Source: an uncultured Rhodospirillales bacterium (GTDB taxonomy: Bacteria; Pseudomonadota; Alphaproteobacteria; Acetobacterales; Acetobacteraceae). Taken from it: 64,000 nucleotides of DNA. Positions 44,280 to 62,535 of this stretch are shown here, piece after piece. Where the stretch lies: positions 1-64,000 of the forward strand of contig CAIMSN010000018.1 of the NCBI GenBank assembly GCA_903844135.1, written 5' to 3'. The translations under genes were made by a program, and so were the position numbers. The notes below the pieces were generated by a model that was not told where the DNA came from, searched no databases, and saw only the letters and a program-made list of their open reading frames with translations. Each line of letters opens with the position of its first letter. Position 1 is the first letter of the stretch.

Positions 44280-44544
44280 GGCATGACCCTTGTGATGCTG
44301 CGGACCCCATATGGCACGGCCAGGAGCGCTCGCCCATGCGGGCCGGCGCCGGCGGATGCTGTCCGAAATCGGCGGGACCGTCAAAACCGCGCCGCCGGGC
44401 CGCCAGGCGCTCGCGCCGCGCTTTGCGTCGGTTGCGCGCGACGATTAACCGCCGGGCAATCTTTTGACCCTAGGTCTTGGCGTCGCCGACCGTGCGAAGC
44501 GGCCGTGCAGGGTTTCGATCTCCGGACAAGTCACAGGAACGCTC

Positions 44545-47692: not shown

Positions 47693-47742
47693 CGTCACTG
47701 ACGTTCGTCACTGACGTTCGTCACTGACTTGCGTCACTGCGG
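47693..47742 (+). repeat. 13-bp tandem repeats just after the adhesin stop
   Basis: Unit CGTCACTGACGTT at 47693-47705 and 47706-47718, then diverged CGTCACTGACTTG (47719-47731) and a partial CGTCACTGCGG (47732-47742). It lies in the 157-bp gap before the aldehyde dehydrogenase gene. Confidence 0.85.
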
Positions 47743-47848
47743 ACCGGCCACGCCCTGGCCGGGTCTGCCGGTTCGCGGCGTTGCCGAGACCGGGCGGACC
47801 GGTTCATGCTCGTCTTGCGCAACGCCGCCGACGGGACGATCGAGCCGC

Positions 47849-49279
47849 ATGACCCACGCACTGCAGTTCTTCATCGATGGCCAATGGGTGTCGCCGGCGA
47901 CCAACCGCACCCTGGAGGTGATCGACCCGGCGACCGAACAGCCCTTCGCCGAGATCTCGCTCGGCAGCGCGGAGGATGTGGACCGCGCGGTGATCGCCGC
48001 GCGCGCCGCCTTCGAGACCTTCTCGCTGAGCACGCGCGACGAGAGGCTGGCGCTGCTGCGGCGCATCCTGGCCTGCTACGACGACCGGCTGGAGGATCTG
48101 GCGCAGGCGATCTCGCGCGAGATGGGCGCGCCGATCGGCTTCGCCCGCGACAGCCAGGCCTGGATCGGCGCCGCCCATCTGCGGCAGACCATCGCAGCTT
48201 TGGACGCGTTCGCGTTCGACCGGCACGAGGGCACCATGCTCGTCACCCACGAGCCGGTCGGTGTGGTCGGGCTGATCACGCCCTGGAACTGGCCGATGAA
48301 CCAGATCGTCTGCAAGGTCGCGCCGGCGATCGCGGCCGGTTGCTGCTGCATCCTCAAGCCGAGCGAGATCGCGCCGCTCAGCGGCACGCTGTTCGCCGAG
48401 ATCATGCAGACTGCCGGCACGCCGCCGGGCGTGTTCAACCTGATCCAGGGCGACGGGCCGGGGGTCGGCGAGGCGCTGGCGACGCATCCCGGGCTGGAGG
48501 CGATCTCGTTTACCGGCTCGACGCGCGCCGGCATCCGCGTGGCCGAGCTGGCCGCCGCGACGGTCAAGCGGGTGCTGCAGGAGCTCGGCGGCAAGTCGCC
48601 GAACCTCGTGCTGCCTGATGCCGACCTGGAGCAGGCGATCCCGGCCAGCATCCATGCCTGCATGGGCAATAGCGGCCAGTCCTGCGACGCGCCGACACGG
48701 CTGCTGGTGCCGCGCGGACGCCAGGGCGAGATCGTCGCGATCGCGCAGCGCGTCGTCGCCGGCTTCGTCACCGGGGCGCCGGCCGCGCCGGGCACCACGC
48801 ATGGTCCGGTGGTCAGCCAGGTGCAGTTCGACAGGATCCAGCGCCTGATCGCCACCGGCATCGCCGAGGGCGCCACGCTGGCGGCCGGCGGCCTGGGCCG
48901 ACCGGACCGGCTCTCCCGGGGCTACTACGTGCGCCCGACCCTGTTCGCCGACGTCACGCCATCGATGACGCTCGCGCGCGAGGAGATCTTCGGGCCGGTG
49001 CTGTCGATCATGCCCTACGACGACGTCGAGCAGGCGATCGCGATCGCCAACGACACCCCGTATGGCCTGGCCGCATACGTGCAGTCCGGCGATCTGGCGG
49101 CGGCGCGCGCCGTGGCGCGACGGCTGCGCGCCGGCAACGTGCTGATCAACCATCCGGCCTGGAACCCGTCGGCGCCCTTCGGCGGATACAAGCAGTCCGG
49201 CAACGGGCGGGAGTACGGGCAGTACGGTCTCGCCGATTTCCTGGAGATCAAGGCCGTTCTGGGCTACGGCGTCGCATGA
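47849..49279 (+). CDS. Aldehyde dehydrogenase
   Basis: 476 aa from MTHALQFFIDGQWVSPATN; the frame upstream runs through the repeat region and is not used. NAD(P)+-dependent oxidation of an aldehyde to its acid. Visible: GVVGLITPWNWPMNQIVCKV, KPSEIAPLSG, FTGSTRAGIRVAEL, Glu in LQELGGKSPN, catalytic Cys in GNSGQSCDAPTR (about residue 278) and EEIFGPVLS. It overlaps the FAD oxidase gene by 4 nt. That arrangement resembles puuC-puuB, in which the aldehyde made by the amine oxidase is oxidised. Substrate by inference: an aminoaldehyde such as from putrescine. Confidence 0.92.
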   Translation: MTHALQFFIDGQWVSPATNRTLEVIDPATEQPFAEISLGSAEDVDRAVIAARAAFETFSLSTRDERLALLRRILACYDDRLEDLAQAISREMGAPIGFARDSQAWIGAAHLRQTIAALDAFAFDRHEGTMLVTHEPVGVVGLITPWNWPMNQIVCKVAPAIAAGCCCILKPSEIAPLSGTLFAEIMQTAGTPPGVFNLIQGDGPGVGEALATHPGLEAISFTGSTRAGIRVAELAAATVKRVLQELGGKSPNLVLPDADLEQAIPASIHACMGNSGQSCDAPTRLLVPRGRQGEIVAIAQRVVAGFVTGAPAAPGTTHGPVVSQVQFDRIQRLIATGIAEGATLAAGGLGRPDRLSRGYYVRPTLFADVTPSMTLAREEIFGPVLSIMPYDDVEQAIAIANDTPYGLAAYVQSGDLAAARAVARRLRAGNVLINHPAWNPSAPFGGYKQSGNGREYGQYGLADFLEIKAVLGYGVA

Positions 49280-50550
49280 GCCTGGTTGGCTGTGTGTATG
49301 GGGACTCCGCGCCGCCTTTCCGCGGCGGCGCCCGCCAGAGCGGCCGGGAGACGACCGAAATCGCGGTGATCGGCGCCGGTCTGACCGGCCTGTCGGCAGC
49401 GCTGCATCTGGCCGAGCGCGGTCGCGGCGTGATGGTGCTGGACCGGCACGCGCCGGGGTGGGGTGCCTCCGGGCGCAATGGCGGCCAGGTCAATCCCGGG
49501 CTGAAGCCGGATCCGGACGCGGTGGCGCGACAGGTCGGCGGCGCGCGCGGCGCGGCGCTGGTGCGCGCCGCCTGGCAGGCGCCCGACCTGGTGTTCGACA
49601 TCATCGCCCGCCATGGGATCGCCTGCGACGCCGTCCGCGGCGGTACGCTGCGGGTTGCCCGCGCGGCGCGGGACATGGAAGCGCTGCGACGCCTCACCGG
49701 GCAATGCCACGCGCATGGCATCGAGTCCGCCGGGCTGCTGGACCGTGACATCACCGCGTCGCGCGTCGGCAGCGACCGGTATCGCGGTGCGCTGTTCGAC
49801 CGGCGCGGCGGACAGTTGAATCCGCTGGCCTATGCGCGCGGCCTGGCACACGCCGCGATCGAGGCCGGCGCGCGGATCATGATCGACAGCCCGGCGCTGA
49901 GCCTGACGCGCACCGTCGCAGGCTGGCGCATCGGCACGCCGGACGGCACGGTCGAGGCCGGCCAGGTGCTGCTGGCCAGCAACGGCTACAGCGACGCGCT
50001 GCTGCCCGCGCTGCCGCGCAGCATCGTGCCGGTCTATAGCGCGATCGTCGCCACGGCGCCCCTGCCGGACCCGATCCGTGCCAGCATCCTGGCGGGGCGC
50101 GAGTCGGTGTACGAACTCGGCCGCATCACCACCTACTACCGGATCGATGCCGGCGGACGGCTGCTGATCGGCGGCCGCTCGCGCTCGCGCGACCTCTCCG
50201 GCCCGGACTCGTTCCGCTTCCTGCAGAACCATGCACGGCGCCTCTGGCCGCAGGTCGCAAGCTGGCGCTGGACGCATGGCTGGAACGGCCAACTGGCCAT
50301 GACCGTGGACCATCTGCCGCATCTGCACGATCCCGCGCCCGGCCTGTTCGCGTGCCTGGGCTATAATGGCCGCGGCGTGGCGATGGCGACGCTGCTGGGG
50401 CGCGAGATGGCGCGCTGGATCGACGGTGCCTCGGAACACGAGCTGCCGATCCCCGCCACACCGATCCGGCCGATGAAGCTGCACCGCTTCTGGAAACTCG
50501 GCGTCGCCTGGCACGTCGCCTCCGGCCGGGCACTGGATCTGATTTCCTGA
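49276..50550 (+). CDS. FAD-dependent amine oxidoreductase (DAO family, PuuB-like)
   Basis: 424 aa, ATG overlapping the previous stop (ATGA). FAD-binding IAVIGAGLTGLSAALHLAERG (about 29-49), then ASGRNGGQVNPGLKPDPD and GGQLNPLAYARGLAHAA. The C-terminal part has THGWNGQLAMTVDHLPHLHD and FACLGYNGRGVAMATLLGRE. The set is close to gamma-glutamylputrescine oxidase and related amine/amino acid oxidases. Next to an aldehyde dehydrogenase and polyamine-type transporters it likely oxidises a (gamma-glutamyl)polyamine. No puuA ligase is seen in the window. Confidence 0.88.
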   Translation: MSLVGCVYGDSAPPFRGGARQSGRETTEIAVIGAGLTGLSAALHLAERGRGVMVLDRHAPGWGASGRNGGQVNPGLKPDPDAVARQVGGARGAALVRAAWQAPDLVFDIIARHGIACDAVRGGTLRVARAARDMEALRRLTGQCHAHGIESAGLLDRDITASRVGSDRYRGALFDRRGGQLNPLAYARGLAHAAIEAGARIMIDSPALSLTRTVAGWRIGTPDGTVEAGQVLLASNGYSDALLPALPRSIVPVYSAIVATAPLPDPIRASILAGRESVYELGRITTYYRIDAGGRLLIGGRSRSRDLSGPDSFRFLQNHARRLWPQVASWRWTHGWNGQLAMTVDHLPHLHDPAPGLFACLGYNGRGVAMATLLGREMARWIDGASEHELPIPATPIRPMKLHRFWKLGVAWHVASGRALDLIS

Positions 50551-50564
50551 GATCCCTCCGAAAC

Positions 50565-50586
50565 CGCCGGGACGGGTTTTCCGGCG
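50565..50586. terminator. Hairpin between convergent FAD oxidase and TonB receptor genes
   Basis: Arms CGCCGG (50565-50570) and CCGGCG (50581-50586) around a 10-nt loop that includes GGTTTT. It fills most of the 36-bp gap between two stops, so it may serve both strands. Weak stem. Confidence 0.35.
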
Positions 50587-53028
50587 TCAGTCGCGGTAGG
50601 TGAGCATCATGCCGACATACCGCGGCGTCAGCGTGGTGTCGTAATAGAGCGGCGAGCCGATCGTCTCGTGCTCCTGGGTGAGACGCGGAGTCGCATTCAG
50701 CAGATTGTTGACGAACACCGACAGGTTGAACGCCCTCCTGAAGATCAAGCCGGCGCGCAGCGAGATGAAGTTGGTGGCATCGGTGCGGACATAGCCGGGA
50801 TCGTAGGTCGCGGTCAGCGCGTCGCGTAGCGGCGTGGTGCCGGAGGGTGCGCCGACATACTGGTAGTCGGCCCGGATATAGGGCTGCGCTCCGAGAACGG
50901 TGAAGCGGCCGCGCGGGGCGGTGTATTGCGCGCCGATGCTGAACTTCCAGGCCGGATCGCCGATGCTGTCGCCGTCGCGGGCGATCAGTCCGCTGCCGGC
51001 CGCGGTGCCGGCATTGCTGTCGGTGGTGTAGTGCGCGTCGGTGAAGCCGAACGCGGTGTCGATCGTCACGCCAGGCGCCGGACGCAGCAGCGCCTGCGCA
51101 TCGAAACCGCGGCTGACTGCCTTGCCGAGATTGGTGGTGTAACGGATGCCGCAGGTCGGCAGCAGCACGCTCTGCTGGATATTGTCCCAGTCGATCGTGT
51201 AGGCGCTGAGGCCGAGCTCGACGCGATCGTCGAACAAGCGGTTTTTGGAGCCGATCTCCCAGCTCTTGACGGTGTCGGAACCATACTGGTCGGGGGCGGA
51301 GGCGATGCCGAAATCGGCGAGATCGGTGGCGCAGGCCTCGACCGGCACCGGCGGGCTGGCGCCGCCGACGCGATAGCCCTTTGCCCAGGTGACGTAGACG
51401 AGGTCGCGCGGAGTCACCTGCCAGGACAGGGTGAATTTCGGCGTGACCGGGTCTTCCGCCTTGCCGCCGGAGCCGCCGGTGGTACCGCCATTCTGCGAAC
51501 CGGCGGCGAAATTGTCGAAGCTGAAATCGGTGTGCGCGTAGCGCAGGCCGGCCTCGAACTTGAGCCCGTCGACGATCCGGTAGGTGCCGTCGGCGAACAC
51601 CGCCTCCTGTTCGTCGACCGCATGGGTCTGGTTGATGTAGCTGTCCTTCCCGTACAGCGGCGCGCCGAAGAAATCGGAGATGGTGTCGCCGAACACCGGC
51701 AGGAACAGCGTGTTGGCGACCGGATCCTCGATCTGTTCCGAGCTGAGCTGCTCGTTGTGCTGGTAGAACACGCCGGCGGTCCAGACGAACCTGGCGCCGG
51801 GATCGTTAGACTGGATACGCACTTCCTGGGTGACGTTGCGCTGCCGGTTGGTGATGCGCGACGGCGAGATGTAGGAGGGCAGCGCAGGGTTGATTCCGGT
51901 CGGTAGCAGCAGCGGGTAGTAGGGAGAGCTGTCGTCGAGATAGGTGTTGTAAAACGAAAGGTTATAGATCGTGCCGTTGTATCCGGTCAGGTTGTCGCGA
52001 TGCAGGTACGAGGTGTTGGAGATGATGTCGACCGGTCCGAGCGCATATTTCATGTTCAGGGACGGCAGATAGAACCGGTCATTGTCCTTGACGTATTCCG
52101 GAGAGTTGGTTCGGAACCGCCCGGCGGACGGATCGGACAGGCCCTCGAAATAGGCGTCGGTGTCGCCCTTCAGACGGCTCTGGACCATGATCGCCGGGGT
52201 GATCAGCAGCCCGTCGACCGGCGCGATCGCCAGGGCGCCGCGATAGACGTTGATGTTGGTGGTGTTGGTGTTGCGGTCGAGGATGTTGCCGGTCTGGATG
52301 TCGAGATGGTCCAGGGTGCCGCCGTCGGTCTCGTGGCTGACGCTGACGCGGAATCCGAGCCGGTCCTTGATCAGCGGGCCGCCGAGCGCGAAGCCGGCAT
52401 CGTAGCTGGGCGAGCCGTCGGCGGAGGCGGAGATCGAGCTGCGGCCATAGGCGCTGTAGTTGTCCAGGCCGGGCTGCGGGGTGATGTAGCGCACCGTGCC
52501 GCCCTCCGACCCGGCACCGAACAGAGTGCCCTGCGGCCCGCGCAGCACCTCGACGCGATCCAGATCGAACAGTTCCGGTACGCTGTTCTCGGCGTTGAAG
52601 CCGAGATTGCGCACCTGCACCGGGGTGTCGTCGATGTAGATGCCGGTGGTGCCGGCGCCGGCCTCGGAGCTGATGCCGCGGATCGAGATGTTATTGGTGG
52701 TCGGATCGAACGAGACCCCCGGGGTGAAGCGCACCACATCCTCGATGGTGCGGGCGCCCTTCAGATCCAGGGTTTGCTGCGTGTAGGCGCTCACGCTGAG
52801 CGGAACCCGGCTGATGCTGCTGGCGCGCCGGGTCGCGGTGACGGTGATTTCCTCCGATCGCGCCGGCGGAGCGGCGCCATCGGCGGATCTGGCGGCTGCG
52901 GTCGGGATCGCAGACTGGCCCGGAGTCGGAGTCTGAGTTTGGGCCTGCGCTTGGGCCGCCGCGAACCGGGGCAGGAACAGGATCGTCAGTGCGCCGGCGA
53001 GGCAGGCGCGTTTCTGGGTCGTGCTCAT
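50587..53028 (-). CDS. TonB-dependent outer-membrane receptor
   Basis: 813 aa. Signal peptide MSTTQKRACLAGALTILFLP with cleavage near AAAQ (about 24-28), then a short Gln/Pro-rich stretch and a TonB box-like EEITVTATRR (about 58-67). Plug domain: TIEDVVRFTPGVSFDPTT, ISIRGISSEAGAGTTGIYIDD and VEVLRGPQGTLFGAGSEGGT. The rest is a 22-strand barrel ending in aromatic LTPRYVGMMLTYRD. Belongs to the general siderophore/substrate receptor class. It is followed on the same strand by nothing and preceded by potA, so polyamine or another amine is a candidate ligand, but iron chelates cannot be excluded. Confidence 0.93.
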   Translation of the reverse strand: MSTTQKRACLAGALTILFLPRFAAAQAQAQTQTPTPGQSAIPTAAARSADGAAPPARSEEITVTATRRASSISRVPLSVSAYTQQTLDLKGARTIEDVVRFTPGVSFDPTTNNISIRGISSEAGAGTTGIYIDDTPVQVRNLGFNAENSVPELFDLDRVEVLRGPQGTLFGAGSEGGTVRYITPQPGLDNYSAYGRSSISASADGSPSYDAGFALGGPLIKDRLGFRVSVSHETDGGTLDHLDIQTGNILDRNTNTTNINVYRGALAIAPVDGLLITPAIMVQSRLKGDTDAYFEGLSDPSAGRFRTNSPEYVKDNDRFYLPSLNMKYALGPVDIISNTSYLHRDNLTGYNGTIYNLSFYNTYLDDSSPYYPLLLPTGINPALPSYISPSRITNRQRNVTQEVRIQSNDPGARFVWTAGVFYQHNEQLSSEQIEDPVANTLFLPVFGDTISDFFGAPLYGKDSYINQTHAVDEQEAVFADGTYRIVDGLKFEAGLRYAHTDFSFDNFAAGSQNGGTTGGSGGKAEDPVTPKFTLSWQVTPRDLVYVTWAKGYRVGGASPPVPVEACATDLADFGIASAPDQYGSDTVKSWEIGSKNRLFDDRVELGLSAYTIDWDNIQQSVLLPTCGIRYTTNLGKAVSRGFDAQALLRPAPGVTIDTAFGFTDAHYTTDSNAGTAAGSGLIARDGDSIGDPAWKFSIGAQYTAPRGRFTVLGAQPYIRADYQYVGAPSGTTPLRDALTATYDPGYVRTDATNFISLRAGLIFRRAFNLSVFVNNLLNATPRLTQEHETIGSPLYYDTTLTPRYVGMMLTYRD

Positions 53029-53082
53029 CGTGGCCTCGGACTCTTCAAGCCAGTTCGGGATGGTGACGGGCGGGACACACGC

Positions 53083-54216
53083 TCATGACTCCGGTGGCAG
53101 CAGCGCCAGCCGGGCCGGCGGCAGGACCAGACGCAGGCTCGTGCCGGGCGCCGGCGCCGGACCGCCGTCGCGCCGCAGATCGGCGAGGATCGCCGTGCCG
53201 TCGGACAGACGGGCTTCCAGCCGGTGGCGGCCGCCCTGGAACAGGCAGCGCTCGAGCGTCGCCGACACCACGTTGGCGGTCTCACCGGGATCGGCGAGCG
53301 CCACGTTTTCGGGTCGGATCGCGAGCAGGCACCCCGCCCTCTCGGATGTCACCCGGGCCGCGCCGCCGGGAGCGTCTGGGAGCGCCAGCCGCTCGCCGGA
53401 GCCGGCCAGCCGCACGCCGCCCGCCTCCGCCTTGGCCGGCAGGAGATTGGTGGCGCCGAGGAACCGCGCGACGAACGCGGTGCGGGGCCGGTCGTAGAGG
53501 ATCTCCGGCCGGTCGATCTGCACGATCCTGCCGCGATGCATCACCGCGATCCGGTCCGACATCGACAGCGCCTCGTCCTGGTCGTGGGTGACCAGCAGGA
53601 AGCTGCTGCCGAGGCGGCGTTGCAGCGCCCGGAGTTCGGCCTGCATCTGCTGGCGCAGTTGCGCGTCGAGGGCGGAGAGCGGCTCGTCGAGCAGCAGGAG
53701 GTCCGGCTGCCTGGCGAGCGCCCGCGCCAGCGCCACGCGCTGCCTCTGGCCGCCGGACAGAGTCGCGGGACGGACGCCGGCCTGCGCCGACAGGCCGACC
53801 AGCGCCAGCATCTCCGTCACCCTGCGATCGATCTCCGCCCGCTTCCGGCGCTGCGTCGACAGGCCGAACCCGACATTGCCGGCGACCGAGAGATGCGGGA
53901 AGAGCGCGTAGTCCTGGAACACGGTGTTGACCGGACGGCGATGGGCGGGATCGGCGGTGATGTCGCGGCCACCGAGCAGGATGCGCCCGGCGCTCGGCTG
54001 TTCCAGTCCGGCGATCATGCGCAGCGTGCTGGTCTTGCCGCAGCCGGACGGGCCGAGCAGCGACAGGAATTCGCCCTGGTGCAGCGACAGATCGAGGTCG
54101 CGCACCACCGGCGCGGCGTTGCCGTAGCTCTTGGCGAGCCCGATCAGGCGCAACAGAGGCGCCGGTTCCTCAGCCGGCCGATCCGACGGAAGCGAGGGCC
54201 GTACGCAGGTCAGCAA
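53083..54216 (-). CDS. potA: Spermidine/putrescine-type ABC transporter ATP-binding protein
   Basis: 377 aa with a TTG start at 54216; TTG 54153 is an alternative closer to the conserved part. ABC domain: Walker A LLGPSGCGKTSTLRMIAGLE, signature LSGGQRQRVALARALA, Walker B LLLDEPLSALDAQLR and the H-loop in LVTHDQDEALSMSDRI. A C-terminal TOBE-like regulatory domain includes LLAIRPENVALADPG. It is divergent from potBCD, separated by 234 bp, and should energise that permease. Its stop lies 54 bp upstream of the TonB receptor start; the two may be cotranscribed. Confidence 0.9.
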   Translation of the reverse strand: MLTCVRPSLPSDRPAEEPAPLLRLIGLAKSYGNAAPVVRDLDLSLHQGEFLSLLGPSGCGKTSTLRMIAGLEQPSAGRILLGGRDITADPAHRRPVNTVFQDYALFPHLSVAGNVGFGLSTQRRKRAEIDRRVTEMLALVGLSAQAGVRPATLSGGQRQRVALARALARQPDLLLLDEPLSALDAQLRQQMQAELRALQRRLGSSFLLVTHDQDEALSMSDRIAVMHRGRIVQIDRPEILYDRPRTAFVARFLGATNLLPAKAEAGGVRLAGSGERLALPDAPGGAARVTSERAGCLLAIRPENVALADPGETANVVSATLERCLFQGGRHRLEARLSDGTAILADLRRDGGPAPAPGTSLRLVLPPARLALLPPES

Positions 54217-54377
54217 GTCGACGCCCGCACGATCAGTCGCGACGACACTGCCCGGATTCCGGTCTGCCTCTGCCTACGAAACGATCCATCGCATCGCGCT
54301 CCCGCCGGTCATGTCGCATTCAACACGACATCGACACGAATTTTGCAAGTTTCGGGCCAGCTTCCGGCATTCGCGCT

Positions 54378-54410
54378 GGGCAATCGCGCCGGGCAATCGT
54401 TTTGGGCAAC
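54378..54410 (+). repeat. Three 13-bp-spaced direct repeats in the potA-potB promoter region
   Basis: GGGCAATC, GGGCAATC and GGGCAAC start at 54378, 54391 and 54404, exactly 13 bp apart (the units are GGGCAATCGCGCC and GGGCAATCGTTTT). They lie between the divergent starts of potA and potB, so they could be a regulator site; duplication of filler DNA is the other reading. Confidence 0.45.
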
Positions 54411-54450
54411 AAAGCTGTTGTCACGTCTCGTTTCGGGCTCCTATCCTTCC

Positions 54451-55368
54451 TTGGGCACGGCTTTGGCGCAATGGAGACGGACGATCGATCGGGGCGAGAC
54501 ACAGGCAGGCGCCCGCGAGATCGATCGCCTCGGCACCATTCCCGCGGCGCTGATCGGCGTGTTCGGGGTCGGTCTGGCGATCCCGCTGATCGCCTGGCTC
54601 AGCCTGCGCGGCGAGGGCGGGGCGATGTTCGGTCATGGCTACGCGCTCGACAATTATCGTGCGCTCTGGGCGCCGCTCTATGCCAAGGTGCTGTGCCGCT
54701 CGCTGCTGATCGCCGGCGCCACCGGCGCGCTGACGGTGGGTCTCGCCTATCCGGTCGCAGGATTCCTGGCGTTCCATGCCGGGACCAGACGCACCCTGCT
54801 GCTCACTCTCGTCACGCTGCCGTTCTGGACCAGCTATCTGCTGCGCGTGTTCGCCTGGAAGGCGATCCTGGGTTATCGCGGCGTGATCAACACCGTGCTG
54901 GTGTCGATGCATGTCGTCTCGGCGCCGCTGCACGGGTTGCTGTATCGGCCGCCGGCGGTGCTCATCACGCTGTCGCATGCCTATGCGGCGTTCGCGGTGC
55001 TGCCGATCTACGTCGCGCTCCGGGCGATCGATCCGGGTCTGATCGAGGCCGCGCGGGATCTCGGCGCGGCGCCGGTGACGCTCTTCACCAGGATCGTGCT
55101 GCCTTTGTCGCTGCCCGGGATCGTCGCGGCGTTCGTCACCGTATTCATCCCGACGTTCGGCGACTATACCGCGCCGGCGCTGGTCGGCGGCCTGTCGAGC
55201 ACCATGATCGGCAGCCTGATCGAGGCGCAGTTCGACAGCGTCGCCGACTGGCCGTTCGGCGCCGCCCTGGCGATGCTGGTGGTGCTGGTGATCGCTCTCG
55301 TGCTGCTGCTGCCGGCGCTGCTGGCCAGGTGGATCGCCAGGCGCGCGGCAATGTCGGGGCGCGCATGA
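54451..55368 (+). CDS. potB: Polyamine-type ABC transporter permease, PotB-like
   Basis: About 305 aa. No in-frame ATG exists before the first membrane helix, so the start is probably TTG (54451 or 54463) and remains uncertain. Membrane helices begin at PAALIGVFGVGLAIPLIAWL; six are expected. The ABC coupling (EAA) segment reads EAARDLGAAPVTLFTRIVLPLSLPGI, and FIPTFGDYTAPALVGG is typical of PotB. Preceded by a nitrogen- or amine-responsive-looking region of direct repeats. The stop overlaps potC (ATGA). Confidence 0.83.
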   Translation: MGTALAQWRRTIDRGETQAGAREIDRLGTIPAALIGVFGVGLAIPLIAWLSLRGEGGAMFGHGYALDNYRALWAPLYAKVLCRSLLIAGATGALTVGLAYPVAGFLAFHAGTRRTLLLTLVTLPFWTSYLLRVFAWKAILGYRGVINTVLVSMHVVSAPLHGLLYRPPAVLITLSHAYAAFAVLPIYVALRAIDPGLIEAARDLGAAPVTLFTRIVLPLSLPGIVAAFVTVFIPTFGDYTAPALVGGLSSTMIGSLIEAQFDSVADWPFGAALAMLVVLVIALVLLLPALLARWIARRAAMSGRA

Positions 55369-56159
55369 ACCGGAGCGGCGCCACCAGCCGCGTGCTTGGT
55401 CTGTATACAGGCTCGTTCATCGTCTTCCTGTATGCGCCGGTGCTGCTGCTGCCGGTGTTCTCGTTCAGCGCCTCGCCCTATGCGGCGCTGCCGATCACCG
55501 GGCCGACGCTGCACTGGTATGCGCTGCTGCTGCACGATCCGGCGGTCGGTGCGGCGCTCGGCGCCAGCCTCGGCGTGGCGCTGTGCGCAGCGCCGATCGC
55601 CAGCCTGGCCGGACTGCTCGCCGCGCATGCGCTGGTCAGGCGGCGCGGCATCGCCGCCGGGCCGGTCGCGGCGCTGTCGCTGGCGCCGCTGCTGATCCCC
55701 GGCGTGGTGCTGGGGGTGGCAATGCTGATGACCGCGCAGCTAGCGGGGGTGGCGCCGTCGCTGGCGCTGGTCGCCGCCGGCCATGTGGTGCTGTGCCTGC
55801 CGCTGTGCCTGATCATCCTGCGCAACCATTTCCGCGCCACCCCGCGCTCGGTCGAGGAGGCGGCGCTCGATCTCGGCGCCACGCCGCTGCAGGCGATGCT
55901 GCGCGTGGTGCTGCCGATGGCCGCGCCCAGCCTGCTGGCGTGCCTGGTGCTGTCGTTCACCACCTCGATGGACGAATTCGTGGTCAGCTTCTTCCTGGCC
56001 GGCAGCCGGCAGACCCTGCCGATCTTCATCTGGAACCATCTGCGCTTTCCAGCCGACCTGCCGAGAATGATGGCGCTCGGCACCATCCTGCTGACCGTGT
56101 CCAGCCTGCTGGCGCTGGCCGGCGGCCGGCTGGCCTTCGGGAGCCTGCGCCGTGCGTGA
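55365..56159 (+). CDS. potC: Polyamine-type ABC transporter permease, PotC-like
   Basis: 264 aa from MNRSGATSRVLGLYTGSFIV. Six membrane helices; the EAA segment EEAALDLGATPLQAMLRVVLPMAAPSL (around residue 165-190) contacts PotA. TTSMDEFVVSFFLAGSRQTLPIFIWN is a PotC hallmark. The ATG overlaps the potB stop, and its own stop lies inside the start of potD, so the three are strictly coupled. Confidence 0.9.
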   Translation: MNRSGATSRVLGLYTGSFIVFLYAPVLLLPVFSFSASPYAALPITGPTLHWYALLLHDPAVGAALGASLGVALCAAPIASLAGLLAAHALVRRRGIAAGPVAALSLAPLLIPGVVLGVAMLMTAQLAGVAPSLALVAAGHVVLCLPLCLIILRNHFRATPRSVEEAALDLGATPLQAMLRVVLPMAAPSLLACLVLSFTTSMDEFVVSFFLAGSRQTLPIFIWNHLRFPADLPRMMALGTILLTVSSLLALAGGRLAFGSLRRA

Positions 56160-57231
56160 GACGCCCGCTCCGCCCGGCTGCGCCAGGGGTCTGCGCGGCG
56201 CGCTCCTGCTGGCGTGCTCGCTGGGCGCGGCCGGGGCGCCGCTGCCTGGCATGGCCGCCGGCCGGCTGACGGTGATGACCTGGTCCGGCTACGAGCTGCC
56301 GCAGTTCCATCCGGACTACGACCGCACGCATCCCGAGGGCGCGACCATCGCCGTGGTCAGCAACGACGACGAGCAGTTCGCCAAGGTCCGCGCCGGCTAC
56401 CGCACCGACATCGCCCATCCCTGCATCGACCGGGTGCAGGACTGGCGCGACGCGCGTCTGATCCAGCCGATCGACACCAGCCGGATCCGCAACTGGGACC
56501 GGCTGTTCCCGATCCTGCGCCAGATCCCCGGGGTGGTCGCCGACGGCAAGGTCTGGATGCTGCCCTGGGACTGGGCCAACACCTCGATCACCTACCGCAC
56601 CGACCTGGTCGCCGGCCATCCGGATAGCTGGACGCTGCTGTGGGACCCGAAATACGAGGCCCGCACGGCGATGATCGATGCGGTGCACGATGCGTGGCTG
56701 GTCGCCGCCCTGGTGGCGAAGGTCGATCCGTTCGACGAAAGCTCGGCCGACATCGCCAGGACCGCGGAGGTGCTGCGCCGTCAGGTCGCGCTGGCCAGCT
56801 TCTATAGCGCCGACATGACCACGCTCGAACAGTCGCTGGCGAGCGGCGAGCTGGTCGCGGCGATGACCTGGAACAGCGCCTACGTGGAGCTGCGCAAGCA
56901 GGGGATTCCGGTCGCCTTTATGCGGCCGAAGGAGGGCATGCTGACCTGGGTCTGCGGGCTGGTACTGATGCGCGACAGCCGGCATGTCGATCTGGCCTAC
57001 GATTTCTTCAATGCGATGGAGACCGAGGCGGCCGGCGTGGCACTGATCCGGGCCTATGGCTACGGCGTCGCCAACAGCGACTCCTTCGCCGCCGTGCCGG
57101 AGGCGGAGCGCGACGCCCTGGCGCTGCCGCGCGATCCGCAGCATGAATTGCGCGACACCATCCTCGTCAGGCCGATGCGCGACCGCGCCAGGATCGCCGC
57201 GACCTACGCAACCGTGAAGGCCGGCGGCTGA
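56152..57231 (+). CDS. potD: Polyamine-type periplasmic binding protein, PotD/F-like
   Basis: 359 aa with GTG start at 56152, overlapping potC by 8 nt. A signal peptide (LRGALLLACSLGAAGAPLPGMAAG) is followed by LTVMTWSGYELPQFHPDYD and SNDDEQFAKVRAGYRTDIAHP, characteristic of spermidine/putrescine-binding proteins. PWDWANTSITYRTDLV and MTWNSAYVELRKQG are also seen. Periplasmic; captures the substrate for PotBCA. Ligand by homology is a polyamine; because it lies directly in front of an amine dehydrogenase operon it may bind another amine. The stop shares one base with the mauB start (TGATG). Confidence 0.88.
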   Translation: MRETPAPPGCARGLRGALLLACSLGAAGAPLPGMAAGRLTVMTWSGYELPQFHPDYDRTHPEGATIAVVSNDDEQFAKVRAGYRTDIAHPCIDRVQDWRDARLIQPIDTSRIRNWDRLFPILRQIPGVVADGKVWMLPWDWANTSITYRTDLVAGHPDSWTLLWDPKYEARTAMIDAVHDAWLVAALVAKVDPFDESSADIARTAEVLRRQVALASFYSADMTTLEQSLASGELVAAMTWNSAYVELRKQGIPVAFMRPKEGMLTWVCGLVLMRDSRHVDLAYDFFNAMETEAAGVALIRAYGYGVANSDSFAAVPEAERDALALPRDPQHELRDTILVRPMRDRARIAATYATVKAGG

Positions 57232-58424
57232 TGACCGATTCACCTTCGAGGCGCCGCCTTGTCGCTTTGGCCGCGACCCTGCTGGTCGCGTCGGGCCAGG
57301 CGGGTGCCGCGGAACCGGACCCGATCCCGCAGACCGAGCAGAGCGACGTGCTCACCCTGCCGCCGCCCGGCCCGCATCGGCTGCTGGTCACGGATGCGGT
57401 GTACAACCACGCCAAGGACGGCCGCGCCTATCTGGTCGACGGCGACAGCGCGCGCATGCTCGGCATGATGCCGGCCGCCTACAACGCCAACATCGTCGCC
57501 GATCCGAAGGGCGGCCATTACTACGTCGCCGAAACCATCTGGACCCGCGGCAATCGCGGCACGCGGCAGGACCTGCTGTCGATCTATGACGCCCATACGC
57601 TGGCGCTGTCCGACGAGATCTCCCTGCCCGGCCGCGCCCTCATCACCACCAAGCGCCAGGACGCCGACATCAGCGCCGACGGGCACTGGGTCTATGTCTA
57701 CAACATGACGCCGAGCAATTCGGTGATCATGGTCGATACGATCACCAAGAAGGTCGTCGCTTCCGTGCCGGTGCCGGGTTGCGGGCTGGCGTTCGCCTGG
57801 GGCGATCACGGCTTCGCGTCGCTCTGCGCCAACGGCGCGCTGGCCAGCGTCGACGTCGCCGATCCGGCGCACCCCAAGCTGGTGCGCGGCAAGCCGTTCT
57901 TCGCCCCGGAGAAGGACCCGGTGTTCGAGCAGAGCCCGACCGACCGGGCGACCGGCCGGACCTTCTTCATCTCCTATGGCGGGATGGTCACGCCGGCGAC
58001 GCTCGGCCCGACGCCGACGCTGGAGGCGCCCTGGTCGATCAACGAGGCGGCGAAACAGGCGCGGGCGCCGGGCGGCGACACGCCGTTCGCGGTCGCCTGG
58101 CGTCCGGGCGGCTGGCAGATCGCCGCCTATCGCCACAGCGACGCGCATCTGTTCGTGCTGATGCACGAGGGCCAGTACTGGACCCACAAGGCCGACGGCA
58201 CCGAGGTGTGGGAACTCGATACCGCGACCCATGCGCTGGTGCGTCGGATCAGGCTGCCGGCCCCCTCCGACATGGTCGGCATCACCCAGGACGCGAAACC
58301 GCTGCTGATCTCCTCGTCGGACAGCGGCGCCCTGTTCCTGCTCGACCCGCAGAGCGGCGCGGTGCTGCGGCAGATCCGGAAACTCGGCGACAACCTGATC
58401 TTCGCGAGCGCGCCCGGTGAGTGA
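57231..58424 (+). CDS. mauB: Amine dehydrogenase heavy (alpha) subunit, MauB/AauB-like
   Basis: 397 aa, with signal peptide (RRRLVALAATLLVASGQAGA). The mature part is the seven-bladed propeller of the methylamine/aromatic amine dehydrogenase large subunit: LLVTDAVYNHAKDGRAYLVDGD, GHYYVAETIWTRGNRGTRQD, DADISADGHWVYVYNMTPSN and DLLTIYD-like LSIYDAHTLAL. It forms an alpha2beta2 enzyme with MauA in the periplasm. Fused to potD by TGATG overlap. Substrate is a primary amine; whether methyl-, aromatic or polyamine cannot be told. Confidence 0.92.
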   Translation: MTDSPSRRRLVALAATLLVASGQAGAAEPDPIPQTEQSDVLTLPPPGPHRLLVTDAVYNHAKDGRAYLVDGDSARMLGMMPAAYNANIVADPKGGHYYVAETIWTRGNRGTRQDLLSIYDAHTLALSDEISLPGRALITTKRQDADISADGHWVYVYNMTPSNSVIMVDTITKKVVASVPVPGCGLAFAWGDHGFASLCANGALASVDVADPAHPKLVRGKPFFAPEKDPVFEQSPTDRATGRTFFISYGGMVTPATLGPTPTLEAPWSINEAAKQARAPGGDTPFAVAWRPGGWQIAAYRHSDAHLFVLMHEGQYWTHKADGTEVWELDTATHALVRRIRLPAPSDMVGITQDAKPLLISSSDSGALFLLDPQSGAVLRQIRKLGDNLIFASAPGE

Positions 58425-58959
58425 GGTCCTCGCCGGCGCGGCGATCGCGACGATGGCGCGCACCATGCTGGCGCTGGTGTTCCTGCAGGGCTGCGCGGTC
58501 AAGGTCGGCGACCCGGCCAGGCTGGCCGGCACCATCGCCGATTACCGGCTGCTGCCGGCAGGGCTGGCGTGGCCGGCGGCGTGGCTGCTGCTGGCGGCGG
58601 AAGCGGTGACGGGGGCGCTGCTGCTCGCAGCCTGCGCGGCGCCGGCCAGGCTGGCGCCGCAGGCCGCCGCGATCGCCGCCATGCTGCTGGCCCTGTTCGT
58701 GACGGCGATGGCGATCAATCTGCGGCGCGGACGGCGACATATCAGTTGCGGCTGCCATGCGCGACCGACGCCGCTCTCCTGGCGCCAGGTCTGGTTCAAT
58801 GTCGGGTTGCTGCTTGCGGTGCCGCTGGCGGCGCTGAAGACCGCGCCGCTTGACGCGCTGCTGTCGGCGCAGGCCGTGTTCGGCGGCCTGCTGTGCTGGG
58901 CGATGGTCCAGACAGGCGCGATGCTGCTGCTGTCGCGCCCGGTGGTCTCCGTCCGATGA
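58417..58959 (+). CDS. mauE: MauE-like membrane protein for amine dehydrogenase maturation
   Basis: 180 aa with GTG start at 58417, overlapping mauB by 8 nt. Four hydrophobic segments, with RHISCGCHARPTPLSW in the loop where MauE/DoxX-like proteins have conserved cysteines. MauE and MauD are both needed for the small subunit in known organisms, probably for disulfide formation. Inner membrane. Confidence 0.88.
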   Translation: MSEVLAGAAIATMARTMLALVFLQGCAVKVGDPARLAGTIADYRLLPAGLAWPAAWLLLAAEAVTGALLLAACAAPARLAPQAAAIAAMLLALFVTAMAINLRRGRRHISCGCHARPTPLSWRQVWFNVGLLLAVPLAALKTAPLDALLSAQAVFGGLLCWAMVQTGAMLLLSRPVVSVR

Positions 58960-59558
58960 GTGCGCTCGCCGTCTCCCAGGTGCTGTCCTGGATCGTGATC
59001 GCCGGGCTGGTGATTCTGGTCGCCGCGCTGGCGCGGCAGATCGGCCTGTTGCACGAGCGGATCGCCCCGGTCGGCGCGCTGATGACCGATACCGGGCCGG
59101 AGGTCGGCCAGACCCTGCCCCGCTTCGAGATGCGGACGCTCGACGACGCGCCGGCGATCGTCGGTGGCAGGGCGCAGGAGCCGCTGCGGCTGCTGCTGTT
59201 CGTCGCCGCCGACTGTCCGATCTGCAAGCGGGTGATCCCGCTGGCGCGGCGCGTGGCGGATGCCGAGGGCGTCGCGCTGACCCTGGTCGGCGATGGCGCG
59301 ACGGCGCCGCTGCTGGCGATGCGCGCGCGGCTCGGCCTCGAACCGGTGCATTTCGTGCACGGTCCGGAGATCGGCCTGGCGCTGCGGATCGGCAAGCTGC
59401 CTTACGCGGTGCTGGTCGACGGCGACGCGGTGATCCGCGGCAAGGGGCTGGTCAACAGCCGCGAACATCTGGAAAGCCTGCTGGTGGCCAACGAGACCGG
59501 TCACGACTCGGTCCAGTCCTACCTTCGCGAACGGGAGCGCAGCGATGCCGCCGACTAG
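58956..59558 (+). CDS. mauD: MauD-like thioredoxin-fold protein
   Basis: 200 aa from MSALAVSQVLSWIVIAGLVI, the ATG overlapping mauE (ATGA). One N-terminal membrane anchor, then a thioredoxin fold with DCPICKRVIPLARR (CxxC around residue 90) and KLPYAVLVDGD with the cis-Pro. It should form or isomerise the six disulfides of MauA. Overlaps the mauA start by 14 nt. Confidence 0.92.
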   Translation: MSALAVSQVLSWIVIAGLVILVAALARQIGLLHERIAPVGALMTDTGPEVGQTLPRFEMRTLDDAPAIVGGRAQEPLRLLLFVAADCPICKRVIPLARRVADAEGVALTLVGDGATAPLLAMRARLGLEPVHFVHGPEIGLALRIGKLPYAVLVDGDAVIRGKGLVNSREHLESLLVANETGHDSVQSYLRERERSDAAD

Positions 59559-60126
59559 ACCGCTCCAGACAAGAGGGGGCCAGGCAAGAGCGGGCCGCAC
59601 CATCGACCGCCTCTCCGAACGCGCCACCCGCCTGCTGGCCGGACGCACCTCGCGACGCGGCCTGCTGGCCAGGCTCGGCGCCTGGAGCGCGATGGCGCCG
59701 GTGCTGCCGATATTGCCGGTACGGCGCGCGCTCGCCGCGGACGCGGCGGCAAGGCCGCCGACCCCGTTCGCCGCCGCCGCCCAGGCCGGCGACGACACCA
59801 AATGCAATTACTGGCGCTACTGCGCGCTCGACGGCTATCTGTGCTCCGCCTGCGGCGGCGGCGTGCATAGCTGCCCGCCCGGCACCGAGGCCTCGCCGAC
59901 CTCCTGGATCGGCACCTGCTTCAACCCGATCGACAGCAGATCCTACCTGGTGGCCTATCGCGACTGCTGCGGCCAGGATGCCTGCGGGCAGATGAACTGC
60001 CTCGGCACCGACGGCGACACGCCCGCCTACCGGCCGCAGTCGAACAACGACATCATCTGGTGCTACGGCGCGAAGTCGCTGATGTACAACTGCTCCACGG
60101 CGGCGATCGTCGGGCTTGCCGGGTAG
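59545..60126 (+). CDS. mauA: TTQ amine dehydrogenase light (beta) subunit, MauA-like
   Basis: 193 aa. Tat signal TSRRGLLARLG (about 35-45). The mature part has 12 cysteines (six disulfides). Trp121 (in TSWIGTC) and Trp172 (in DIIWCYG) lie 51 apart, exactly as Trp57 and Trp108 of Paracoccus MauA, which form the tryptophan-tryptophylquinone cofactor. Asp140 (YRDCC) and Asp96 (ALDG) align with Asp76 and Asp32. Tyr181 aligns with Tyr119, but Ser184 takes the place of Thr122, and the loop after Trp172 is two residues shorter. Oxidises a primary amine and passes electrons to a small redox protein. Confidence 0.95.
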   Translation: MPPTRPLQTRGGQARAGRTIDRLSERATRLLAGRTSRRGLLARLGAWSAMAPVLPILPVRRALAADAAARPPTPFAAAAQAGDDTKCNYWRYCALDGYLCSACGGGVHSCPPGTEASPTSWIGTCFNPIDSRSYLVAYRDCCGQDACGQMNCLGTDGDTPAYRPQSNNDIIWCYGAKSLMYNCSTAAIVGLAG

Positions 60127-60511
60127 CGCGGGCTTGCGTCGCGCAGCGATCCTCCTCGCCGCGACGATTCCGCTCTGTGCCGCCGGTGCGGCGGATGCGG
60201 AGCCGCAGCCGATCGGCGCCGCACAGTCGGCCTATCTGATGCGGTGCGGCGGCTGCCACGGGATCGAGGGCGTATCGGTACCGGGCCTGATCCCGACCTT
60301 GCGCGGCAGGGTCGGCGCCCTGGCCGGTACCGCCAAGGGACGCGACTACATGCTGCATCTGCCCAACGTGGCGATGTCGCGGCTCGACGACGCGACCCTG
60401 GCGTCGGTGCTGAACTTCGTGGTGTTCGGTCTCGGCGGCGCCAGCACGGCGCCGGGCACACCGCCATTCACCGCGCATCAGGTGCATGCAGCGCTGCGCG
60501 ACAGCAGGTAG
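60116..60511 (+). CDS. Small periplasmic c-type cytochrome
   Basis: 131 aa with TTG start at 60116, overlapping mauA by 11 nt, or TTG at 60134. Signal peptide (RRAAILLAATIPLCAAGAADA). One haem-binding site MRCGGCHGIEG (CGGCH, about 42-48) and a Met in NVAMSRLDD as possible axial ligand. Placed where amicyanin or cytochrome c550-like acceptors occur in mau operons, it is the likely electron acceptor of the dehydrogenase. No cupredoxin gene is seen here. Confidence 0.88.
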   Translation: MPGSAGLRRAAILLAATIPLCAAGAADAEPQPIGAAQSAYLMRCGGCHGIEGVSVPGLIPTLRGRVGALAGTAKGRDYMLHLPNVAMSRLDDATLASVLNFVVFGLGGASTAPGTPPFTAHQVHAALRDSR

Positions 60512-60518
60512 CGGTCGG

Positions 60519-60989
60519 TCAGAGCGGCAGGTCGCGGTTGTTGGCGATCGATTCCATCGTCACGTACGACGTCACCGCGTCCAGCTCCACGCGGTCGATG
60601 AGCTGACGATAGATACCGTCGAACGCGTTCATGTCCTCGGCCACGATCTTCAGGATGTAGTCGTATTCCCCGGCGATCCGGTAGAAATCGATGACGTTCG
60701 GCAGGCCCATCACCGCGTCGCGGAACACCGCCAGCCAGTCGCGCGCGTGATGGCGCGTGCGCACCAAGACGAACACCGTCAGCGACAGCCCCACTTTGAC
60801 GGGATCGATCCGCAGCGTCTCGCTGGCGATCAGACCGGACTCGCGCAGGGCCCGGAGCCGCTTCCAGCACGCCGCCTGGGACAGGCCGACCCGGTCGGCG
60901 AGATCGCGCTGCGGCAGCGACGAATCTCTCTGCAGAACCCGCAAGATACGGCGGTCGGCCGTGTCTAATTTTGCAGTTTTGGTTATCAC
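60519..60989 (-). CDS. Lrp/AsnC-family transcriptional regulator
   Basis: 156 aa from GTG at 60989 (VITKTAKLDTADRRILRVLQ), chosen because the family starts just before KLD; a TTG at 61025 is the alternative. HTH: LPQRDLADRVGLSQAACWKRLRALRESGLI. RAM effector domain: SLTVFVLVRTRHHARDWLAVF with VIDFYRIAGEYDYILKIVAEDM. Usually senses an amino acid. Divergent from the class V aminotransferase across 94 bp, its likely target, and convergent with the mau operon end. Confidence 0.9.
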   Translation of the reverse strand: MITKTAKLDTADRRILRVLQRDSSLPQRDLADRVGLSQAACWKRLRALRESGLIASETLRIDPVKVGLSLTVFVLVRTRHHARDWLAVFRDAVMGLPNVIDFYRIAGEYDYILKIVAEDMNAFDGIYRQLIDRVELDAVTSYVTMESIANNRDLPL

Positions 60990-61083
60990 ATGACCACCAT
61001 TCAGCGAATTGCCGACTAAATTCAAGCATGAATCGCGCGCACCCGGCGGCTACGCTCGCCGCGACAGAGCGAGTGTTTCGACC

Positions 61084-62535
61084 ATGGACGCCAGCGCCGC
61101 CTTTTCCGACTTCGCCGCCAGCCTCGCCGGTTCCGACCCGGTGGCAGAGCTGCGGCGCGGCCTGATCGGCGAGGGCGCGCCAGTGCCCGGCCCGTTCGGC
61201 GCGCATGCGCTGATCTATGCCGACTACGTCGCCTCCGGCCGGGCGCTGACGCAGGTGGAATCGTTCGTGATGGAGCGGGTGCTGCCGTACTACGCCAACA
61301 GCCACACCGAGGCGTCGTTCTGCGGCGAGTACGTCTCGCGGCTGCGGGCGCAGGCGCGCGCCGAGATCGCCCGGCTGTGCGGCGCCGGGCCCGGCTTCAG
61401 CACGATCTTTTCCGGCTCCGGCGCCACCGCCGGCCTCAACCGGCTGGTCGGGCTCTGCCTCGGCGACCTGGGCGAGGCAGAGCGCGGCCGGTGCGTGGTG
61501 TTCGTCGGGCCGTACGAGCACCACTCCAACATCCTGCCCTGGCGGGAATCCGGCGCTCGGGTGGTCGAGATCGCCGAAGCGGCGGATGGCGGCCCGCATC
61601 TGGCGCATCTGCGCGCGATGCTGACCCTGCACGCCGACAGCCCGCGCAGGATCGGCGCCTTCTCGATCGCCTCGAACGTCACCGGCGTGGTGAGCGATGC
61701 CGACGCGGTCACGGCTCTGCTGAAACGGCACGGGGCGCTGGCGATCTGGGACTATGCCGGCGGCGGGCCCTATCTGCCGATCGACATGAAGGCCGGCACG
61801 GCGTTCGAGAAGGACGCGGTGGTGGTGTCGCCGCACAAATTCCCGGGCGGGCCCGGCGCGTCCGGGGTCCTGATCGTGCGCGACGGAGCGACCGCGCGCC
61901 GGTCGCCCACCCTGCCGGGCGGCGGGACGGTGCGGTTCGTCTCTCCCTGGGGACACGACTATGCCGAGTGCCTGGTCGCCCGCGAGGAGGCCGGCACGCC
62001 GAACATCGTCGGCGACATCCGGGCCGCGCTCTGCTTCCTGGTCAAGGCGGCGATCGGACAGGACAGGCTCGACGCGCGGCACGCGGAGCTGCGGGCGCGC
62101 GCCTGCGGGATCTGGGCGCGCAACCCGAACATCGAGATCCTCGGCAATCCGGACGCCGCGATCGCCCTGCCGATCTTTTCCCTGCGCGTCAGGGACCGGC
62201 GCGAAGGCGGCCATCTGCATCAGCAGCTCTTCACCCGCATGTTGTCGGATCTGTACGGGATCCAGGCGCGCGGCGGCTGCGCCTGCGCCGGGCCGTACGC
62301 GCATCGCCTGATCGGCATCGATCGGGCGACATCCGGGCTGCTGCGCCAGGCGATCCTGGACGGCGACGAGAGCCGCAAGCCGGGCTGGACCCGGCTCAAT
62401 CTCAGCGCGCTGCTCGACGATGCCAAGGCCGACCGGATCATCGAGGCGGTCGACACGCTGGCGCGCGACCCGTATCCGATCGCCGATCGCTATGGCTGCG
62501 ACCGCGACAGCGCCCGCTTCAGGGTGTTGGCCTAA
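61084..62535 (+). CDS. PLP-dependent class V aminotransferase / cysteine desulfurase-like
   Basis: 483 aa from MDASAAFSDFAASLAGSDPV; the frame upstream to 61009 is unlikely to be used. ALIYADYVASGRALTQVESFV, YANSHTEASFCGEYVSRLRA, VFVGPYEHHSNILPWRESGA and the PLP Lys in VVSPHKFPGGPGASGVL are the family blocks. A CACAGPYAHRL Cys loop near residue 400 resembles the NifS/SufS active-site region. Longer than SufS (about 410) with a C-terminal extension. Divergent Lrp suggests an amino acid substrate. Its end overlaps the PepSY gene by 17 nt. Confidence 0.87.
   Translation: MDASAAFSDFAASLAGSDPVAELRRGLIGEGAPVPGPFGAHALIYADYVASGRALTQVESFVMERVLPYYANSHTEASFCGEYVSRLRAQARAEIARLCGAGPGFSTIFSGSGATAGLNRLVGLCLGDLGEAERGRCVVFVGPYEHHSNILPWRESGARVVEIAEAADGGPHLAHLRAMLTLHADSPRRIGAFSIASNVTGVVSDADAVTALLKRHGALAIWDYAGGGPYLPIDMKAGTAFEKDAVVVSPHKFPGGPGASGVLIVRDGATARRSPTLPGGGTVRFVSPWGHDYAECLVAREEAGTPNIVGDIRAALCFLVKAAIGQDRLDARHAELRARACGIWARNPNIEILGNPDAAIALPIFSLRVRDRREGGHLHQQLFTRMLSDLYGIQARGGCACAGPYAHRLIGIDRATSGLLRQAILDGDESRKPGWTRLNLSALLDDAKADRIIEAVDTLARDPYPIADRYGCDRDSARFRVLA

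Follow-up and report, generated by a model that had tools for sequence, protein, structure and literature searches.

Pot-type importer genes adjoining a tryptophan tryptophylquinone amine dehydrogenase gene cluster in an uncultured member of the Acetobacteraceae

The window analyzed here is a stretch of 64,000 nucleotides (nt) on contig 18 of the 3.78-Mb genome of an uncultured member of the family Acetobacteraceae. On its + strand, between 54451 and 60511, lie eight genes in the order potB-potC-potD-mauB-mauE-mauD-mauA-cytochrome c; thus, three components of a Pot-type ATP-binding cassette (ABC) importer are directly followed by the genes for an amine dehydrogenase of the tryptophan tryptophylquinone (TTQ) type. 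The genes are adjacent and do not encode protein fusions. Their identities were derived from Pfam and NCBIfam profile searches of the open reading frames (ORFs) of the window, which bore out the eight genes on one strand recognized in the initial annotation. The arrangement is a new combination of known parts, the potD-mauB junction being seen only in the window among the loci screened. The features of the region are the following.

47706–60543: block without a syntenic counterpart in the genus-mate G056 (blastn; both flanks kept in G056)
47729–49279, + strand: aldehyde dehydrogenase (Aldedh, 500.8 bits; the ORF start is given, the first in-frame Met being at 47849, the start used in the initial annotation)
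49276–50550, + strand: flavin adenine dinucleotide (FAD)-dependent oxidase of the DAO family (DAO, 235.7 bits; best NCBIfam model L-pipecolate oxidase AmaA, 292.5 versus a cut-off of 600)
50587–53028, − strand: TonB-dependent receptor (Plug and β-barrel domains; NCBIfam hits all below cut-off, the best of siderophore type)
53083–54216, − strand: potA, importer ATPase, divergent from the operon (ABC_tran and TOBE_2; potA subfamily 334.6 bits versus 355.6)
54217–54450: divergent intergenic region between potA and potB, likely the promoter region for potA and the operon
54451–55368, + strand: potB, permease (BPD_transp_1, 50.8 bits; best NCBIfam model PotB, 182.7 bits versus a cut-off of 348)
55365–56159, + strand: potC, permease (BPD_transp_1)
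56152–57231, + strand: periplasmic binding protein of the Cys-pair group, in potD position (SBP_bac_8; pocket comparison below)
57231–58424, + strand: mauB, heavy subunit of the TTQ amine dehydrogenase (Me-amine-dh_H, PF06433, 145 bits; PDB matches to heavy chains of methylamine dehydrogenase [MADH] and aromatic amine dehydrogenase [AADH])
58417–58959, + strand: mauE, membrane redox accessory protein (PF07291, 77.9 bits)
58956–59558, + strand: mauD, thioredoxin-like accessory protein (TIGR02661, 174.8 bits versus 188.6)
59545–60126, + strand: mauA, TTQ-bearing light subunit (Me-amine-dh_L, PF02975, 168 bits; twin-arginine-like leader read by eye)
60116–60511, + strand: mono-haem cytochrome c (CxxCH, here CGGCH, read from the sequence; Cytochrom_C 19.1 bits versus 21.3; PDB matches to cytochrome c-552)

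From potB to the cytochrome c gene, the successive junctions overlap by 4, 8, 1, 8, 4, 14, and 11 nt. The earlier statement that every junction overlaps by 1–14 nt holds firmly for six of the seven; the last one (mauA-cytochrome c, 11 nt) hinges on the start codon, as a start at TTG 60134 would abolish the overlap with mauA and leave a plausible signal peptide (read by eye). The start of potB is also unclear, TTG 54451 being a guess. Overlaps are found in 7 of 19 close same-strand gene pairs elsewhere in the window (a hand-picked list; one of the seven, of 230 nt, is probably a start error), so that they support an operon, yet are ordinary for this genome. A scan of 54100–60700 for terminator-like sites detected none (1.6 expected), and the sole −35/−10-like match (54418–54447, in the gap between potA and potB) is at chance level (0.6 expected). 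Because the genes overlap and terminator-like sites are absent, a single operon is assumed, in which one mRNA probably encodes both importer and dehydrogenase.

MauA of the window aligned with the light chain of MADH over residues 20–192 of 193. It was compared across 122 loci, which were drawn from 144 MauA/MauB pairs (themselves from 147 MauA hits) and are nonredundant only in that identical MauA domains were removed; near-identical species remain. Both TTQ tryptophans (presumably MADH 57 and 108), the Asp of the YRDCC motif, which we take to be the catalytic base, and ten cysteine columns are invariant in all 122 aligned sequences. By this Trp pair, the Asp, the cysteine network, the heavy-subunit family, mauE, and mauD, the enzyme belongs to the TTQ amine dehydrogenase superfamily (MADH/AADH); the narrower NCBIfam cut-offs for MADH are missed by both subunits (heavy, 147.9 versus 454.45; light, 182.9 versus 196.85). 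In a tree of the 122 MauA+MauB pairs, the window lies within a clade of 43 members (support 0.998), each of the others being either a named acetic acid bacterium or a genome from the same family. This clade is nested in one of 79 members (support 1.0) that includes Sphingomonadales, further Acetobacteraceae loci, an unplaced alphaproteobacterial metagenome-assembled genome (MAG), and a single MAG from the Gammaproteobacteria. Rooted at its midpoint, the tree puts the window on the same side as the Paracoccus MADH and at a great distance from the Pseudomonas aeruginosa aau enzymes; the distance from the window is 2.85 to the enzyme of plasmid RW109 versus 0.92 to the nearest Acetobacter, in separate clades. 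The context of the second TTQ tryptophan is Ile-Ile-Trp, as in MADH, and Ile-Asn-Trp in the aau enzyme.

A cytochrome c gene comes next after mauA in 112 of the 122 loci, and mauE and mauD are near it in 100. Assignment to a mau operon in the narrow sense was rejected, as no MauG- or MauF-like ORF lies near mauA and the MADH cut-offs are missed; assignment to an aau operon was rejected because the enzyme falls into a clade separate from annotated AauA/AauB, though the B-E-D-A-cytochrome order without mauG would fit. Among 397 sampled genomes of the family, 35, that of the window included, contain PF02975 above cut-off. One more (G122:C1:1656488–1656691) has a weak mauA-like match with four stops, apparently a decayed gene. 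In one genus of the Acetobacteraceae (L103–L115), mauB adjoins mauA with no mauE or mauD detected between them, and the genomes have two or three mauA matches.

The initial annotation took mauF, mauG, amicyanin, or azurin as the rule in mau and aau operons; MauG- or MauF-like ORFs were found near mauA in 3 of the 122 loci (amicyanin and azurin were not searched for), which does not support such a rule. To our knowledge, aau operons do without mauG. In the whole genome of the window, PF03150, the MauG/cytochrome c peroxidase family, had no match, and MauG of Paracoccus denitrificans as the query gave a best match of only E = 0.03. The profile search is sensitive enough to find the MauG-like ORF beside mauA in another genome (G709). 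Of the 34 other mau-carrying genomes of the family, 33 contain PF03150, as do 12 of 21 elsewhere in class and phylum, many of these positives probably being ordinary peroxidases. In all, 11 of 56 mauA-carrying genomes lack it, that of the window included (10 of 55 others); this tally omits G122 and G1014, where mauA matches are weak only. Four of the PF03150-negative genomes consist of one or two contigs (G405, G538, G824, and G942). MauG is named as the TTQ maturase in two papers (PMC7876137, PMC6405878), and TTQ maturation in the PF03150-negative genomes may need another route.

On the importer side, the Pot-type set is complete at the family level (ATPase, two permeases, and an SBP_bac_8 binding protein), and all four proteins score under the NCBIfam polyamine cut-offs. 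The binding protein was aligned to PotF and PotD of Escherichia coli, with PotF numbering. According to PMC8666671, the PotF pocket consists of a proximal group (S38, D39, and D247), an aromatic box (W37, W244, and F276), and a distal group (S85, S87, A182, E185, D278, and L348), and D247, D278, E185, D39, and R254 are at least 96% conserved in 250 PotF homologs. At these positions, the window protein has W, S, and G (37–39), C (85), D (185), W (244), A (247), W (276), and C (278). Compared with PotF, the changes are D39G, S85C, D247A, D278C, and E185D, with the aromatic box kept (W for F276). Three of the four conserved pocket acids are therefore gone (D39, D247, and D278), E185 survives as D, and a pair of cysteines stands in place of one acid (D278) and one serine (S85). 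As PotD of E. coli also has Ser at position 247, it is D39 and D278 that carry the argument against a polyamine. Because most of the polyamine-contacting acids of PotF are lost, a polyamine ligand is unlikely, and so is a diamine gripped at both ends as in PotF; the term "polyamine-type", used earlier, does not stand as a statement about the ligand. Judged from these residues, the ligand would be an amine whose one cationic end rests against the aromatic box, a monoamine being favored over a polyamine, and a disulphide between cysteines 85 and 278 is plausible.

The cysteine pair is not peculiar to the window. It occurs in 26 of 30 readable binding proteins, that of the window included. The set was picked by similarity to the window protein and to Pot proteins near mau, less one duplicate (L182) and three partial ORFs, and is therefore not randomly sampled. 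The pair is missing from the proteins of L064, L068, and L198 and from one of the two that L163 encodes. Among the 26 proteins that have it, D39 is replaced in 24 and D247 in all, and 25 have an acid (D or E) at position 185. Of the 23 other Cys-pair loci, five (L139, L186, L196, L200, and L201) carry PuuA-, oxidase-, or aminotransferase-type genes scoring more than 200 bits, a modest pointer to amines. Close relatives of the binding protein (E ≤ 1e-30; best matches 50–55% identical) are present in four other genomes among the 397 of the family (G130, G179, G217, and G386), only one of which (G386) also has mauA, on another contig. At all five close loci outside the window (L139, L160, L161, L162, and L163; binding protein at least 50% identical), a PuuR-type regulator adjoins the importer, and potA comes after potD, either directly or after a regulator.

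How often importer and TTQ genes lie together was assessed around mauA at the 122 loci; flanks vary in length and are short at contig ends, so that the numbers given are minimum estimates of linkage. At five loci (the window, L068, L064, L142, and L170), a gene for a Pot-type permease or binding protein occurs within 8 kb of mauA, but the operon-like arrangement on the same strand is confined to the window and L068. At 16 of the 122 loci, no more than 9 kb separates mauA from an oxidase of the same family as the window's; 14 of these loci belong to the Acetobacteraceae (L083 and L092 each count twice, having two mauA genes on one stretch). Ten of the 16, the window among them and each from the Acetobacteraceae, have an aldehyde dehydrogenase no more than 11 kb away as well, and in nine of these 10, again including the window, the two genes are adjacent (not in L083). 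The window oxidase is 53% and 56% identical to those of L037 and L083, which were compared in full, and the aldehyde dehydrogenase is 63% identical to its counterpart in L037 (Acetobacter malorum). The same two families reappear without a TTQ enzyme on plasmid CP131057 of the Hyphomicrobiales strain UR115 (L139): an orthologous importer (potB 48%, potC 44%, potD 53%, and potA 49% identical), in which a PuuR-type regulator separates potD from potA, is located between an oxidase (40%) and an aldehyde dehydrogenase (62%), and no TTQ enzyme is encoded in that stretch. Because importer and TTQ enzyme share this third partner, oxidase/aldehyde dehydrogenase, they can be tied into one module. The previous assignment of the nearby FAD oxidase and aldehyde dehydrogenase to the same pathway is thus corroborated, by their families near mau in other Acetobacteraceae and beside the importer ortholog in UR115.

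The edges of the region were examined by comparison with a genus-mate. Homology to G056 (blastn) stops at window position 47705 and restarts at 60544, within an Lrp gene, on two G056 stretches; on the left flank, it covers an ORF ending at 47691. Inside the block, the genes for the ATPase and the aldehyde dehydrogenase alone have matches in G056, which are short and lie elsewhere in that genome (whole-genome DNA search, 40 of 601 candidate places scored), and neither mauA nor the binding protein had a match in the four genus-mates sampled. Because homology ends at both edges and the genus-mates lack mauA and the binding protein, the 12.8-kb stretch from aldehyde dehydrogenase to cytochrome c appears to behave as one accessory block. 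A foreign base composition of the block was considered and rejected (GC 0.697 versus 0.704 to the left and 0.702 to the right). The left-flanking ORF (44464–47691, 1,075 amino acids [aa]) has a coding-like base composition, no Pfam or NCBIfam match, and is partly conserved in G056. To the right, an Lrp/AsnC regulator (60519–61025, − strand) is divergent from a class V aminotransferase (61084–62535, + strand); as this pair is conserved in G056, it is probably not part of the amine block.

With the mau operon of P. denitrificans (L169), the window shares the order mauB-mauE-mauD-mauA, both TTQ tryptophans with the Ile-Ile-Trp context, and the side of the midpoint-rooted tree. It differs in that no mauF- or mauG-like ORF is nearby, the operon lacks amicyanin and mauJ genes, the NCBIfam MADH cut-offs are missed, a cytochrome c gene follows mauA, and an importer precedes mauB. 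With the aau operon of the P. aeruginosa plasmid RW109 (L170), it shares the order aauB-mauE-mauD-aauA-cytochrome, the absence of mauG from the stretch, and an adjoining ABC importer. That importer (L170:2526–5322; binding protein and two permeases) is, however, divergent from aauB, its binding protein matches SBP_bac_6 best, and the enzyme belongs to a distant clade with Ile-Asn-Trp. The earlier comparison with known mau and aau operons was inaccurate in this respect as well, an annotated aau operon already having an ABC importer at its side.

The closest parallel in organization is locus L068 of a Sphingomonadales MAG (JAIXUQ010000034.1; 7491–20536). There, mauB-mauE-mauD-mauA-cytochrome is followed on the same strand by a ligase of the glutamine synthetase family (35% identical to PuuA) and the importer genes, in the order binding protein, two permeases, and ATPase. 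Next come a hydrolase resembling PuuD (37%), an aminotransferase, and another ligase of that family (33% to PuuA; its highest-scoring NCBIfam model, GlnA, stays below cut-off); the locus ends within an oxidase gene resembling PuuB (40% over 158 aa). In contrast to the window, the importer is located downstream of mau, and its binding protein keeps acids at 247 and 278. As this protein is only 24% identical to that of the window and has no Cys pair, the two joinings of mau and Pot genes look independent. In the Puu pathway of E. coli (L179), PuuB and PuuC are the distant counterparts of the window oxidase (30%) and aldehyde dehydrogenase (39%), but the window has no PuuA-, PuuD-, PuuE-, or PuuR-like ORF at the cut-off used. 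A complete Puu pathway in the genome of the window was rejected, as a PuuA-like ligase, used as the query against the whole genome, returned a single partial match (32%) of the glutamine synthetase type. Directly upstream of mauB-mauA, a proteobacterial MAG (L078:1871–10558) encodes a ligase resembling PuuA (37%) and an oxidase resembling PuuB (38%). In the open-licence PMC literature, no link between mau and Pot genes was found, nor anything on acetic acid bacteria with TTQ or a methylamine dehydrogenase, and a search for MauG together with aromatic amine dehydrogenase was unproductive; absence from this literature is a weak negative in each case.

Taken together, we consider it rather likely that importer, TTQ enzyme, oxidase, and aldehyde dehydrogenase form one amine-catabolism module of 12.8 kb that is present in the genome of the window and not in the four genus-mates sampled. 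The TonB receptor may carry the amine, or a compound bearing it, across the outer membrane. From the chemistry of the family, periplasmic MauBA would convert a primary amine into aldehyde and ammonia, with the electrons passing to the cytochrome c of the operon. The importer, having kept the aromatic box and not the diamine-binding set of acids, would bring into the cytoplasm an amine that is cationic at one end only, and there the FAD oxidase and aldehyde dehydrogenase would complete the oxidation; the latter may also accept aldehyde made in the periplasm. The proposal of one pathway for importer and enzyme in the initial annotation thereby gains from the linkage of oxidase and aldehyde dehydrogenase to both mau and the UR115 importer, from the edges of the block, and from the L068 operon, whereas the polyamine ligand is not retained. 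Several observations weigh against a common module. The five Pot-linked loci among 122 are little above an expectation of about two (a rough estimate, assuming three Pot-type operons per 4 Mb, with no computed control). A wide recurrence of the potD-mauB order had to be rejected: neither a second such junction nor the order potBCD-mauBEDA, a search for which had been suggested along with the pathway, was found at the screened loci (L031–L079, L080–L138, L140–L159, L164–L168, and plasmid loci L169–L178), the screen around mauA having used the window proteins and hidden Markov models seeded from them; it is blind to distant binding proteins, as it missed the SBP_bac_6 protein of L170, although the permeases were found. 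Furthermore, importer ortholog and mauA occur together in only two of five importer genomes (among the 397; P = 0.06), amine genes of the types searched for lie at only the five of 23 other Cys-pair loci named above, the window has no PuuR-type regulator at the cut-off used, unlike the importer orthologs, and the flanks in G056 are on different contigs, so that there is no clean empty site. With respect to the ligand, loss of D247 alone does not exclude spermidine.

That last point belongs to the earlier view of a true polyamine module, in which putrescine or spermidine would be imported and degraded by the TTQ enzyme and the oxidase. It draws on the Pot type of the subunits, on L068, which unites TTQ genes with Pot and Puu-type genes, on the PuuR-type regulators beside the importer orthologs, and on the spermidine binder PotD, itself without the acid at 247. 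With three of the acids that PMC8666671 reports as conserved in PotF homologs lost and only E185 left, as D, with no more than the partial glutamine synthetase match in place of PuuA, and with four transporter proteins under the polyamine cut-offs, it seems unlikely. We are more doubtful still that the parts are chance neighbors, that is, a mau operon that came to lie downstream of an importer unrelated to it and uses the importer's promoter while serving a separate pathway. The direct junction is indeed unique among the screened loci, mauB sits where another gene stands at the five close importer loci, and the linkage rate is barely raised; against this, oxidase and aldehyde dehydrogenase partner both parts, the edges of the block coincide with the gene set, and L068 is a second operon of mau and Pot genes. 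Improbable, finally, is an importer that retrieves the product of the periplasmic enzyme (an aldehyde, an imine, or the acid derived from it) instead of the amine. A ligand of lower positive charge would fit a pocket that has lost acids from both its proximal and its distal group, and an aldehyde dehydrogenase is encoded within the block, but the kept aromatic box and the one remaining acid favor a cation, and Cys-pair relatives are found near genes of the PuuA, oxidase, or aminotransferase type.

Returning to the amine module, it can be read jointly with the distribution of PF03150. A working TTQ enzyme would then be formed without a dihaem protein of the MauG family, through a maturation route shared with other TTQ operons and perhaps involving the cytochrome c encoded after mauA, and the pathway would be fed by an importer of the Cys-pair group whose ligand is not a polyamine; we put this forward only tentatively, as a reading that may well prove wrong in part. 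Compared with the importer linkage, the occurrence of a TTQ enzyme where no MauG-family gene is detectable in the genome is the more unusual lead, and genomes with intact TTQ genes and no such gene are natural test cases for MauG-free TTQ formation. For the TTQ clade of acetic acid bacteria and sphingomonads, for which no substrates were found in the open-licence literature, a specific importer tied to a periplasmic quinone amine dehydrogenase offers a route to naming them, as the ligand of the binding protein would point to the substrate of the enzyme.

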